Origin: Halobaculum halobium | Lineage (GTDB): Archaea; Halobacteriota; Halobacteria; Halobacteriales; Haloferacaceae | Reading direction: 5' to 3' | DNA length: 64,000 nucleotides | Assembly: GCF_030127145.1 (NCBI RefSeq) | Contig: NZ_CP126158.1 | Span: 744,001 to 808,000 of the forward strand | In this document: positions 26,534 to 40,117 of the stretch, in pieces | Numbering within the stretch: the stretch's first letter is position 1 | Layout: the number at the start of each line of letters is the position of its first letter | Program-made: the position numbers and the translations under genes | Notes under the pieces: model-generated | Database searches by the model: none | What the model was told of the DNA's origin: nothing | Seen by the model: the letters and a program-made list of their open reading frames with translations, nothing else

Positions 26534-27040
26534 TCACGCGATCGGCTCGCCCTTTTCGTCGACCGGCGTCTTCACCACGAGAACCGGGCGGTCGCTGGCG
26601 CGCACGACGCGCTCTGTGACGCTCCCGACGAGCATGCGGTACTCGTCGGGCCGGCGTTGGCTCCCCGCCACGATGAGGTCTGCGTCGACCTCGTCGGCGA
26701 CAGCGAGGATCGTCTCGTCCGGCGTGCCGTGTCGGAGGTGAGTTTCGACGGTGACGCCCGAGCTGGTCCCCCGCTCGCGCACGTCATCGAGCGTCTCCTC
26801 GCCGAGTTCTTCGAAGCCGTACTCCGGCCCCTCGTGGCCGTCGACGTACTCGTCGCCGGAGTACGTCGTGATCGCCGCCTCGTCGACGACGAACAGCGCG
26901 TGCAACGTCGCCTCCCGGTCGACGGCGATGTCCAGGTCGTCGAGCAGTCGGGCGCGATCCGCGGCGAGGTCCAGTGCGTGCTCGGTGGCGTTGATCGAGG
27001 CGACGCCGCCGTTCGTCGCCAGCAGGATATCCTCGTACAT
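26534..27040 (-). CDS. Universal stress protein
   Basis: This 168-residue UspA-family protein begins YEDILLATNGGVASINATEHALDLA and ends with the ATP-binding loop VAGSQRRPDEYRMLVGSVTERVVRASDRPVLVV. The G-x2-G-x9-G(S/T) pattern is only roughly kept (GSQRRPDEYRMLVGSVTE), so nucleotide binding is likely but not certain. The ATG at MYEDILLA is preferred to one ten codons earlier because the first strand follows at once. Role: general stress response, partner unknown. Confidence 0.9.
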   Translation of the reverse strand: MYEDILLATNGGVASINATEHALDLAADRARLLDDLDIAVDREATLHALFVVDEAAITTYSGDEYVDGHEGPEYGFEELGEETLDDVRERGTSSGVTVETHLRHGTPDETILAVADEVDADLIVAGSQRRPDEYRMLVGSVTERVVRASDRPVLVVKTPVDEKGEPIA

Positions 27041-36451: not shown

Positions 36452-37738
36452 CTATTCCCCGCGGATTTCCGCCATGTGGTCGATCCGCGACTGCACCAGC
36501 TCGGCGGTTCCAATGTCGTGTCGGACGTGGAATCCCTCGTCGATCATCGACAGCGCGGCCTCCGCGTCCGCCTCCGCCGCCGCGATGGAACCGCCGAGGC
36601 CGACGACAGCGAACGACCGCGAGGTGGTCGTGAACAGCCCGTCCTCGCGCTGGTCGACGCTCGCGTAAAACAGCAGCGCGTCGCCGACGCTGGAGTCGTC
36701 GACCTCGATTCGAGCGCCTGCGTCGGGCTCGACCGGATAGCCGGCCGGGACCGCGTACTTGCAAACCGTCGCCTCCCCGGAGAACGCCAGGTCGGGCAGC
36801 GATTCGCCGTCACGGGCCGCCGTGAGCACGTCGAGGAACGGCGTCGAGAGCACCGGTAGCGTGTTCATCGCCTCGGGGTCGCCGAATCGGGCGTTGAACT
36901 CCACCACCTTCGGCCCGTCCGCGCCGAGCATGAACTGCCCGTAGAGGACGCCCTTGTACTCGGGGAGCGCGTCGACGACAGCGTCGATGATCTCGACGGC
37001 GGCGTCGTAGTCCGCGTCGGTCATGAACGGCAGCGTCAGATCCGTGTCCGAGTAGCTGCCCATCCCGCCGGTGTTGGGCCCCTCGTCGCCCTCATATGCG
37101 CGCTTGTGGTCCTGCACCGCGGGCGTCGTGCGCACCTCACCGTTCGCGACGAACGCTTGCACGGTGAACTCCTCGCCGACGAGGCGCTCCTCGATCACCC
37201 ACTCGTCCCACTCGGCGTCGCGGATGTACTCGATGGCCGCCTCGGTCGTGAGCTGGTCTCCCGTTACGCGGACGCCCTTCCCGCCGGTGAGCCCGACGGG
37301 CTTGACCGCCACGTCGCCGTCGTACTCCGCGACGTACTCGGCGGCCGCATCCGCCGAGTCGAACGTCTCGAAGTCCGGGTTCCCCGGGATATCGTGCTCC
37401 GACATGAACCGCCGCTGGAACGCCTTGTCCGTCTCGATGCGCGCCTCGTCGGCGCGCGGACCGAAGGTGTACACGCCCGCGGCGTCGAGCGCGTCGGCGA
37501 CTCCGGCCTCCAAGGCGGACTCGGGGCCGATCACCGCGAGGTCCGCGTCGACGTCCGCCGCGTAGTCGACGATCGAGTCGGCGTCTCGCTCGTCTATCTG
37601 CTCGAACCCGGACGCGAGCGAGGCGATCCCGGGGTTTCGGTTGCCGGCACAGGCGTACAGCGTCGCGTCGTCCGCAACCGCGCGGGCGATGGCGTGTTCG
37701 CGGCCGCCGCCGCCGACGAGGAGCACTGTCTCGGACAT
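36452..37738 (-). CDS. purD: Phosphoribosylamine--glycine ligase
   Basis: This 428-residue ATP-grasp enzyme catalyses the second step of purine synthesis, joining glycine to phosphoribosylamine. The start is the canonical SETVLLVGGGGREHAIARA. ATP-grasp regions include PVGLTGGKGVRVTGD, EFTVQAFV and NTGGMGSYSD; the metal site is VEFNARFGDPE. Full length for the family. It is divergent from the DUF255 gene, and the shared 156-base region is full of palindromes. The frame is open far upstream, but only this ATG has the conserved N-terminus. Confidence 0.97.
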   Translation of the reverse strand: MSETVLLVGGGGREHAIARAVADDATLYACAGNRNPGIASLASGFEQIDERDADSIVDYAADVDADLAVIGPESALEAGVADALDAAGVYTFGPRADEARIETDKAFQRRFMSEHDIPGNPDFETFDSADAAAEYVAEYDGDVAVKPVGLTGGKGVRVTGDQLTTEAAIEYIRDAEWDEWVIEERLVGEEFTVQAFVANGEVRTTPAVQDHKRAYEGDEGPNTGGMGSYSDTDLTLPFMTDADYDAAVEIIDAVVDALPEYKGVLYGQFMLGADGPKVVEFNARFGDPEAMNTLPVLSTPFLDVLTAARDGESLPDLAFSGEATVCKYAVPAGYPVEPDAGARIEVDDSSVGDALLFYASVDQREDGLFTTTSRSFAVVGLGGSIAAAEADAEAALSMIDEGFHVRHDIGTAELVQSRIDHMAEIRGE

Positions 37739-37745
37739 GGTCGAC

Positions 37746-37829
37746 TGGATAATACATCGGAGTGTAAACCTTACTCTCTCAGCGCCTCGTATTATCCACA
37801 CACGTGGATAGCTATCTCGTGTCGACACG
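37746..37829. promoter_or_regulatory. Cluster of inverted repeats between purD and the DUF255 gene
   Basis: TGGATAATAC (37746-37755) is perfectly inverted as GTATTATCCA at 37789-37798. TATCCAC/GTGGATA (37793-37810) is a second inverted repeat with a 4-base spacer. GATAGCTATC (37807-37816) and CGTGTCGACACG (37818-37829) are perfect palindromes. The GGATA core recurs. Located upstream of both divergent genes, it looks like a multi-site operator. Confidence 0.6.
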
Positions 37830-37894: not shown

Positions 37895-40117
37895 ATGACC
37901 GATCCGACGGCGCGAAACCGGCTGGAGGAGGAGGCCAGCCCGTATCTGCGCCAACACGCGGACAATCCAGTCCACTGGCAGCCGTGGGACGACGCCGCGC
38001 TCGCGGCGGCCCGCGAGCGCGACGTGCCGATCTTCCTGTCGGTGGGCTACGCCGCGTGTCACTGGTGTCACGTCATGGAGGAAGAATCGTTCGAGGACGA
38101 GGCCGTCGCGGACGTGCTCAACGACGAGTTCGTCCCGGTGAAGGTCGACCGCGAGGAGCGACCGGATCTCGACCGGATCTACCAGACGGTGAACCAACTC
38201 GTCAATGGCCGGGGCGGCTGGCCGTTGTCCGTGTGGCTCACGCCCGAGGGGAAGCCGTTCTACGTCGGGACGTACTTCCCGCGCGACGGCCGTCAGGGAA
38301 TGCCGGGGTTCCTCGAAGTGTGCCGCAACATCGCGAACTCGTGGAACGACCCCGACCAGCGCGCCGACATGGAGGCGCGCGCCGACCAGTGGACGGCCGC
38401 CGCCCGCGACGAACTGGAGTCGACCGGTGGTGACGGCGACACGCCCGAGGCGGCTGACGGCGTCGGAGCGGCCGCTGAATCGGCCGACAGAGCCGAGGTC
38501 GACGGCGAACGGAGCGGCCTCCCGGACGCCGACGTCCTCTCTGACGCCGTCACGGCGGCGCTGCGAAGCGCCGACCGCGAACACGGTGGCTTCGGCCGCC
38601 AGGGGCCGAAGTTCCCGCAGACCGGGCGGATCGACCTCCTCATGCAGGCGTCCGCGCGAAGTGGCCGCGAAGAGCCGTTGAACGTCGCCGTCGAGACGCT
38701 CGACGCGATGGCCGACGGCGGGCTCTACGACCAGGTCGGCGGCGGCTTCCACCGCTACTGCACCGACCGCGAGTGGGTCGTCCCCCACTTCGAGAAGATG
38801 CTGTACGACAACGCCGAGTTGGCGCGCGTCTTCCTTGACGCCCACCGCCTGCTCGGTCGGCCGAAATACGCGACCGTCGCCCGCGAGACGCTCGCGTTCC
38901 TCGATCGGGAGCTGTCCCACCCCGACGGCGGCTTCTACGGAACGCTCGACGCCGACTCCGGCGAGGGAGAGGGGGAGTTCTACGTCTGGACGCCGGAGTC
39001 CGTCGCGGAGGCGCTCGCAGCCGCCGATCGGGAGTTCGAGTCAGACGACGTCGAACTGGTGTGCGACCGATTCGGCGTCGAAGACGGCGGCAACTTCGAG
39101 CGCGGAACGACCGTGCTCACCCGCGCGGCCCCGGTCGAGGAGCTCGCCGACGCGTACGACCTGCCCGTCGAGACCGTGCGCGAACGGCTGATGAGGGCGC
39201 GGACGGCGTTGTTCGACCATCGCGAAGCGACACGCGAGCGGCCGCCCCGGGACGAAAAGGTGCTCGCGGGGTGGAACGGTCTCGCGGTCTCGGCGTTCGC
39301 CGCTGCCGGTCGAACCCTCGATCCGGACCTCGCCGAGCGCGGCGCCGACGCGCTCGGGTTCGTACGAGAGCACCTGTGGGACGGCGAGCGGCTCAGCCGC
39401 CGATACATCGAGCGCGATGGCGACGCCGTCGGCGAGGGCGAAGTGAAGGGCGTCGGCTACCTCGAGGACTACGCCTACCTGGGACGGGCGGCGCTCGATC
39501 TGTACGGGGTTACCGGCGACGTGGGTCACCTCGGCTTCGCGCTCGATCTCGGTCGAACCGTGGTCGAGGCGTTCTACGATGCCGACGACGCGACGATCTA
39601 CTCCACGCCGGCCGACGGTGAGGAGCTCGTCGTGCGGCCGCAGGAGCCGACGGACGCCTCCACTCCGTCCAGCCTCGGCGTCGCGACACGGCTATTGCTC
39701 GATCTCGACCTGTTCGCACCCGACGAGGCGTTCGCCGAAGTCGCGCGCGACGCGCTTGCGACCCACGCGGACGACGTGACCGCGTCGCCGCTGGAACACG
39801 TCACGCTGGCACTCGCGGCCGCCCGCGCCGAGAGCGGCCCCTTCGAACTCACGCTCGCGTCCGACGGGGTGCCCGAGGAGTGGCGAGACACGCTCGCAAG
39901 TCGGTACCTCCCCGGCGTCGTCGTGGCACCGCGGCCACCGACCGCCGACGGCGTCGCGGCGTGGGTCGACGACCTCGGGCTGGCCGATGTGCCGCCGATC
40001 TGGCACGGGCGCGACGCCCGCGACGGCGCGCCGACGGCGTACGCCTGCCGCGACTTCACCTGTTCGCCGCCGAACCACGATCTGCGGGCGGCGCTGGAGT
40101 GGGCCGCCGGCGACTAG
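37895..40117 (+). CDS. Thioredoxin-fold DUF255 protein (YyaL/SSP411 family)
   Basis: This 740-residue protein is in the DUF255 family (SSP411/SPATA20/YyaL). Residues 1-165 form a thioredoxin-like domain with the CxxC site AACHWCHVM near residue 52 and KVDREERPDLD. The rest is a six-hairpin (N-acylglucosamine-2-epimerase-like) domain with LDADSGEGEGEFYVWTPES and EVKGVGYLEDYAYLGRAAL. An acidic insert lies near residue 180. Function is unknown; a redox or sugar role is inferred only. Monocistronic. Confidence 0.9.
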   Translation: MTDPTARNRLEEEASPYLRQHADNPVHWQPWDDAALAAARERDVPIFLSVGYAACHWCHVMEEESFEDEAVADVLNDEFVPVKVDREERPDLDRIYQTVNQLVNGRGGWPLSVWLTPEGKPFYVGTYFPRDGRQGMPGFLEVCRNIANSWNDPDQRADMEARADQWTAAARDELESTGGDGDTPEAADGVGAAAESADRAEVDGERSGLPDADVLSDAVTAALRSADREHGGFGRQGPKFPQTGRIDLLMQASARSGREEPLNVAVETLDAMADGGLYDQVGGGFHRYCTDREWVVPHFEKMLYDNAELARVFLDAHRLLGRPKYATVARETLAFLDRELSHPDGGFYGTLDADSGEGEGEFYVWTPESVAEALAAADREFESDDVELVCDRFGVEDGGNFERGTTVLTRAAPVEELADAYDLPVETVRERLMRARTALFDHREATRERPPRDEKVLAGWNGLAVSAFAAAGRTLDPDLAERGADALGFVREHLWDGERLSRRYIERDGDAVGEGEVKGVGYLEDYAYLGRAALDLYGVTGDVGHLGFALDLGRTVVEAFYDADDATIYSTPADGEELVVRPQEPTDASTPSSLGVATRLLLDLDLFAPDEAFAEVARDALATHADDVTASPLEHVTLALAAARAESGPFELTLASDGVPEEWRDTLASRYLPGVVVAPRPPTADGVAAWVDDLGLADVPPIWHGRDARDGAPTAYACRDFTCSPPNHDLRAALEWAAGD

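Follow-up and report, generated by a model that had tools for sequence, protein, structure and literature searches.

A candidate purine-regulon operator upstream of haloarchaeal purD and a phosphoribosyltransferase-type protein as its likely repressor

Two described regulators with a phosphoribosyltransferase (PRTase) domain are the closest points of comparison for the locus reported here: PurR of Bacillus subtilis, whose N-terminal DNA-binding domain is a winged helix, and haloarchaeal GfcR, an HTH-PRTase protein. PurR (PDB 1O57, 1P4A and 7RMW) controls the de novo purine genes and purine transport through two boxes per promoter, a layout that resembles the paired dyads described below. According to the accessible text of PMC8789054, each of these boxes is centred on CGAA and is occupied by one dimer, with PRPP acting as inducer and (p)ppGpp as anti-inducer. 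GfcR, a regulator of the PRTase type like the candidate that we put forward here, is an activator of sugar catabolism and is encoded by a gene named pyrE1 (PMC11519228, accessible part). A third factor, TrmB of Halobacterium salinarum, influences purine gene levels and recognises a motif, TACT-N7-8-GAGTA, that differs from the one found here. In the accessible parts of two Halobacterium studies (PMC3794607, PMC4540570), the action of TrmB on purine genes is inferred to be indirect, and these genes are concluded to answer to the purine level through another, TrmB-independent factor. The former did not find a PurR homologue by sequence in H. salinarum and regards a second purine regulator as likely; the latter reports lower expression of purine genes at higher purine levels, and that a trmB mutant with an inferred shortage of PRPP has raised pur expression. 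In the openly accessible literature, outside which most subscription papers lie, we met no report naming a haloarchaeal purine regulator or the operator described below.

We analysed a 64-kb stretch of DNA from Halobaculum halobium (the window, by which we mean this whole stretch), where purD, whose closest named relative is that of Halobaculum litoreum (89% identity), and a DUF255 gene diverge from an intergenic region that holds 84 bp of inverted repeats. From comparison with other haloarchaea, we consider it likely that these 84 bp contain a purine-regulon operator and that P0003, a protein encoded elsewhere in the genome, is the repressor that binds it. The features of the locus are:

36452..37738, minus strand: purD, phosphoribosylglycinamide synthetase (GARS_A, GARS_N and GARS_C Pfam hits; translation)
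37746..37755, no strand assigned: left arm TGGATAATAC of a 10-bp inverted repeat, not conserved, overlapping part of the 3' flank of site 2
37751..37768, minus strand: putative second operator (site 2), reading TTTACAC-TCCG-ATGTATT and sharing bases with the TATA box, at -30 to -13 relative to the purD ATG
37763..37768, minus strand: TATA-like box TTTACA of purD, read from the sequence, -30 to -25 from the ATG
37769..37776, minus strand: probable BRE beside the purD TATA box, an AGAGYAA-type sequence conserved in aligned promoters
37789..37798, no strand assigned: GTATTATCCA, right-hand arm of that 10-bp repeat, likewise not conserved, overlapping site 1
37793..37810, no strand assigned: putative upstream operator, site 1, TATCCAC-ACAC-GTGGATA, a perfect dyad, -72 to -55 from the purD ATG
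37818..37829, no strand assigned: 12-bp palindrome CGTGTCGACACG, without conservation among Halobaculum relatives
37895..40117, plus strand: DUF255/Thioredox_DsbH gene (PF03190), divergent neighbour of purD

Every inverted repeat named in a preliminary description of this locus is present, the divergent arrangement of the two genes included in that account is likewise correct, and the repeats are denser than chance. The 10-bp arms TGGATAATAC and GTATTATCCA form a perfect inverted repeat, and the 7-bp arms TATCCAC and GTGGATA occupy 37793-37799 and 37804-37810. In dinucleotide shuffles of the 84 bp (n = 2000), 10-bp arms arose in 9, a 7-bp hairpin in 72, and a 12-bp palindrome in 56, while all three kinds together arose in none of the 2000 and were reached by 2 of the 761 non-overlapping 84-bp windows of the 64-kb sequence. 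Among the four inverted repeats, only the 18-bp dyad at 37793-37810 is conserved in relatives. Both TGGATAATAC and the 12-bp palindrome are absent upstream of purD at the 10 other Halobaculum loci compared (9 distinct ones, as L031 and L116 are identical in sequence), and the TGGATAATAC arms and the GTCGAC palindrome are thus strain-specific. A search of the whole genome for the 10-mer, which the preliminary description had proposed as a motif to be sought across pur genes, gave 3 exact and 29 one-mismatch places; two of the exact copies are the purD arms, and the third lies at a locus (L003) with no adjoining pur gene recognised. Of the 30 places inspected, the only ones recognised as sites in pur-gene promoters were the two at purD, and the 10-mer was rejected as a regulon motif. 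What other pur promoters do share is the 18-bp dyad, with which the proposal of a purine regulator survives: within this genome, dyad-like sites precede a purine permease gene as well as purF, purL, purB/purNH, purK, purA, purU, and guaA. As a side observation, an identical stretch containing GGATTATCCA occurs at four places in the genome (L004, L022, L023, and L024) and is probably a repeated mobile element.

The preliminary description had also suggested that a multi-subunit or multi-site regulator acts on both purine synthesis and the divergent gene of unknown role. On that view, the whole cluster, including its GGATA repeats, would be one composite array linking purD with DUF255. The cluster does exceed chance density, and many haloarchaea have DUF255 close to purD, but the GGATA arms and the GTCGAC palindrome are confined to this strain, and synteny does not track the operator. 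DUF255 was found within 4 kb upstream of purD at 34 of the 51 named operator-bearing loci and was not found within that distance at the other 17, whereas 13 of the 26 operator-lacking loci have it all the same. Hence the operator follows purD rather than DUF255, a role of the DUF255 gene as co-target of the purine regulon is not supported by synteny, and we consider a composite array highly improbable.

We compared purD upstream regions from 80 named and 30 unnamed loci and found that a bipartite element is common to these haloarchaeal regions. Spacing was measured between CAC triplets and anchored on a TTAC/TTAG core, which most of the aligned purD promoters have at a distance of 28 to 30 bp ahead of the ATG; this left 105 distinct promoters of the 110, since L031 and L116 lack the core (their promoter reads CTACAC) and L126, L132, and L138 are duplicates. 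Site 1, allowing up to 3 mismatches to TATSCACNNNNGTGSATA, occurred at exactly 42 bp in 51 of the 105, and 6 more had it at 43 bp; the 60 other spacings in the range from 14 to 75 bp gave no case. The CAC starts of sites 1 and 2 in the window are likewise exactly 42 bp apart, a distance equal to four turns of B-DNA. In site 2, the right half (RTG) falls outside the TATA hexamer and was kept in 67 of 72 operator-bearing promoters vs 8 of 28 operator-lacking ones, a class whose slight impurity works against our reading, as it wrongly includes L135 (a 42-bp site with 4 mismatches, tied with another position) as well as L058 and L124 (6-mismatch sites at 42 bp). Judged from these alignments, the operator would have a tandem form, TATSCAC-N4-GTGSATA, paired at 42 bp. 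The earlier idea of a multi-site purine regulator is strongly supported, although the motif differs from the one then proposed.

To score such sites, we built a symmetrised position-specific matrix from 71 purD site-1 sequences with the window's own excluded (consensus TATGCACGATCGTGCATA). Site 1 scored 23.3, the highest value in the whole 64-kb window, where the next was 12.0. Site 2 of the window, taken alone, is a weak match (1.7), and an unrelated position (3.8) beats it as partner of site 1. Outside the purD promoters of the 80 named loci, just 4 positions in 694,124 reached at least 15.

A search of the own genome (G000) with the pattern alone was weakly enriched over its reversed control (88 vs 68 places per strand at up to 3 mismatches). 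At up to 2 mismatches, it gave 14 distinct places, 6 of them before purine genes, namely purD, purA, purK, purU, guaA, and an AzgA-like permease, whose site is perfect; 2 others precede nrdJ and serA/serB, and in the remaining 6 no relation to pur genes was recognised. The 3-mismatch places include purF, the P0003 promoter, and the divergent purB/purNH promoter, where two sites are separated by 53 bp, while the purL site was reached through comparison with relatives (the names purF, purB, and purNH come from reading translations, not from family searches).

Scanning ~300 bp around orthologue starts in 30 named genomes, 18 with P0003 and 12 without it, we scored matching sites. Sites before purF were present in 18/18 P0003-bearing genomes (scores of at least 17.6) and 0/12 of those without P0003 (maximum 6.7; Mann-Whitney p 2.6e-6). 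For purL, the counts were 18/18 (at least 13.3, all at -64) and 0/10 (maximum 5.4; p 8.9e-6), with G171 (not searched) as well as G181 and G165 (match starting within the coding sequence) left out, and with the own genome, which replaces one of each, included in the 18. The purB sites were found in 17/18 (at least 11.0) vs 0/12 (maximum 8.9; p 8.7e-6), where for G178 and G175, whose matches begin at residue 111-112, the gene start was extrapolated, and the purA sites in 14/17 (at least 10) vs 0/12 (maximum 5.8; p 3.7e-5), without G180 (partial match). Those of guaA were variable and weak (5/18 at 10 or more vs 0/11; p 0.013), in a set without G158 (no match) and the second piece of G166.

Pairing extends to many of these promoters. 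A partner site at 42, 43, 52, or 53 bp accompanies 9 of 12 own-genome target promoters; in P0003-bearing genomes, the best purL partner is 43 bp away in 16/18 promoters and the purB partner 52 or 53 bp away in 16/18, while a partner at one of these four distances occurs in just 5/18 purF and 2/18 guaA promoters. Where the regulator is missing, such partners were seen in 1/12 purF, 3/12 purB, and 1/11 guaA promoters.

Two further own-genome loci deserve mention on their own. Before nrdJ (adenosylcobalamin-dependent ribonucleotide reductase; L147, G000:C1:1214401), two strong operator-like sites stand 16 bp apart, ~200 bp ahead of the reading frame, by which dNTP synthesis could possibly be tied to the purine regulon. 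Between the divergent serB and serA genes (L150, G000:C1:1818118), two sites are 43 bp apart, which suggests that serine/glycine supply may come under shared purine control. With sites known from the own genome, serA/serB, nrdJ, purK, and purU are candidate members of the regulon.

The candidate regulator is encoded at:

G000:C1:2439597-2440307: P0003, 237 residues, annotated as 'adenine phosphoribosyltransferase' (NF006328)

P0003 was present in 25/25 operator-bearing vs 11/24 operator-lacking genomes (Fisher p 9.5e-6, uncorrected for phylogeny, the 25 being our choice from 51 named operator-bearing ones). The 13 genomes without it bear the names Haloarcula, Halomicroarcula, Halovenus, Halorientalis, Halapricum, Natronomonas, or Halobacteriales MAG, with Haloplanus ruber in addition. 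In a phylum-wide sample, NF006328 matched in 31 of 196 genomes, 30 of them above the cut-off and all of these in the order of the window; among control genomes, 4 matched, including Haloferax volcanii and Bacillus subtilis, with 2 of the four over the cut-off. Within the family of the window, P0003 is found in 133 of 148 genomes. Of the 15 that lack it, 12 make up the entire sample from one genus (g24, to which the Haloplanus ruber genome belongs), 2 are members of another (g5) and are 68-72% complete, and a single further genome is 62% complete. Haloarcula-type genomes lack both the operators and P0003, and so, independently, does one Haloferacaceae genus: the g24 purD promoters had a site in 0/11 read, and P0003 was missing in 12/12 g24 genomes. 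Across the promoters read, to which the G119 stretch does not belong, a purD site scoring at least 10 was found in 0/13 P0003-lacking vs 17/26 P0003-bearing genomes (p 7.8e-5).

The g24 promoters also bear on the reading that the locus is a conserved core promoter (BRE, TATA box, and transcription start) beset by chance palindromes. That site 2 overlaps TTTACA at 37763-37768, which from the haloarchaeal consensus we take to be the purD TATA box, and that this box and the adjacent AGAGYAA-type sequence, presumably a BRE, are conserved in all promoter groups, would both fit such a reading. Yet the g24 promoters keep the BRE/TATA region (CAACGTTTAGG in most) and have lost both dyads, which the core promoter therefore does not need, and site 1, which is found again at other pur genes, is located upstream of the core promoter. 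A core promoter alone is refuted on these grounds, and we give it almost no credence.

The converse case, P0003 without a purD operator, is frequent: besides the 11 of 24 operator-lacking genomes that have the protein, the purD promoter scores below 10 in 9 of 26 P0003-bearing genomes, which indicates that purD often leaves the regulon. In those 11 genomes, the regulon seems to have shrunk rather than vanished. The Halonotius purD promoters (L032 and L044) are among the operator-lacking loci.

P0003 matches NF006328 at 349.5 bits (family cut-off 184), and the family name is no proof that the activity was assayed. Its gene is the upstream neighbour of the AzgA-like permease with the perfect operator. 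When a profile from P0003 and 18 of its 29 remaining relatives was compared with the PDB, Bacillus PurR came first (1p4a/1o57, E 7e-13), followed by the APRT 4m0k (2e-6). The PurR match spans the PRTase domain alone (profile positions 69-219), where the phosphate-binding loop of the alignment, LIRSGET, resembles FMKAGGT of PurR. Opposite ESYQLEYG of 4m0k, a stretch with the LEYG-type motif of APRT enzymes, the profile has EARQRLASG and P0003 itself ESRQRLASG. The N terminus, 60 residues of which are conserved with a nearly fully invariant GDLNRYVNGHVLP stretch, gave weak XRE-type hits (HTH_3 in 12/19 and HTH_31 in 10/19 profile members) that fall below the Pfam cut-off for P0003; together with the limited extent of the PurR match, this is why we do not file P0003 as a PurR member. 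Promoters of P0003 orthologues carry matching sites as well, most often near -75 and -33, with the best partner at 42 or 43 bp in 13/29; the site of the own genome is modest (11.3), with a partner 58 bp rather than 42 bp away. From both the promoter and the protein sets we left out L198, where a contig end shifts the start.

These data can also be read differently: the operators, which are real, would be bound by some other transcription factor that shares the phyletic pattern of P0003, and P0003 would be a salvage enzyme and one of the targets. The annotation as adenine phosphoribosyltransferase agrees with this, sites in the P0003 promoter are expected equally of a target gene, and the Haloarcula-type absence is largely that of one clade, so that any protein lost there co-occurs. 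We nevertheless regard it as unlikely, given the conserved N terminus with its HTH_3/HTH_31 signal, a PRTase domain nearer to PurR than to APRT, and the second, separate joint absence in g24. P0003 may still be an enzyme.

As for known haloarchaeal metabolic regulators, binding of the sites by GfcR, a PyrE-like PRTase regulator, or by TrmB, which affects Halobacterium purine genes (PMC3794607, accessible part), seems to us very unlikely. Haloarcula hispanica has GfcR (HAH_1560, according to the accessible text of PMC11519228), whereas the Haloarcula-type genomes examined are without these operators. The TrmB motif is not in the purD promoter; its sole place in the window is a palindromic match, TACTCGTCGCCGGAGTA, at 26847-26863 (2 strand matches vs a mean of 0.08 in shuffles), and PMC3794607, in its accessible part, itself infers a TrmB-independent purine regulator. 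Both were set aside as binders.

In our preferred reading, with P0003 as repressor, the operator, its fixed spacing, the sites common to pur genes, and their joint presence and absence with P0003 are read from the genomes, while binding by P0003, repression, and the identity of the effector are what we infer. Two dyads of the type TATGCAC-N4-GTGCATA, four helical turns apart, would flank and overlap the BRE/TATA region of purD, with a P0003 dimer on each and the pair of dimers in cooperative contact across the promoter over four or five turns. Occupancy of site 2 at purD would mask the TATA/start region and keep TBP/TFB or the polymerase off the promoter. A signal from the purine pathway, bound in the PRTase pocket, would release or tighten P0003; this could be PRPP, acting as inducer, or else a purine nucleotide that serves as corepressor. 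The trmB-mutant result in the accessible text of PMC4540570 argues against PRPP as a simple inducer, and since the low PRPP deduced there goes with high pur expression, a purine-nucleotide corepressor is at least as likely.

Such a system would be PurR-like and would nonetheless differ from that of Bacillus in operator, spacing, and probably DNA-binding domain. The half-sites differ; the dyads start 42 (or 52/53) bp apart, compared to B. subtilis boxes that are 14 bp long and separated by 16-17 bp; and the second purD dyad overlaps an archaeal TATA box. At the dyad centre, GAAC/GTTC is frequent in haloarchaea, to be set beside CGAA in the PurR boxes. The N-terminal signal of P0003 is of the weak XRE type, and its likeness to PurR is confined to the PRTase domain. 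Tentatively, and with slightly less than even confidence, we suggest that haloarchaea independently built a PurR-like repressor from a PurR-related PRTase sensor domain and an XRE-type HTH in place of the winged helix, with bridged dimers four or five turns apart over or around the BRE/TATA region and an effector logic other than that of Bacillus, in which case the haloarchaeal proteins of the whole NF006328 family, now named for adenine phosphoribosyltransferase, would be this repressor.

For the TrmB-independent purine factor that the two Halobacterium studies (PMC3794607, PMC4540570; accessible parts) invoked, a candidate gene, an operator, and a predicted regulon can now be named, and the predictions are testable in genetically tractable haloarchaea. 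The locus offers a case of a putative regulator and its operators missing together in two lineages, and it suggests that an enzyme annotation in current use may hide a transcription factor.
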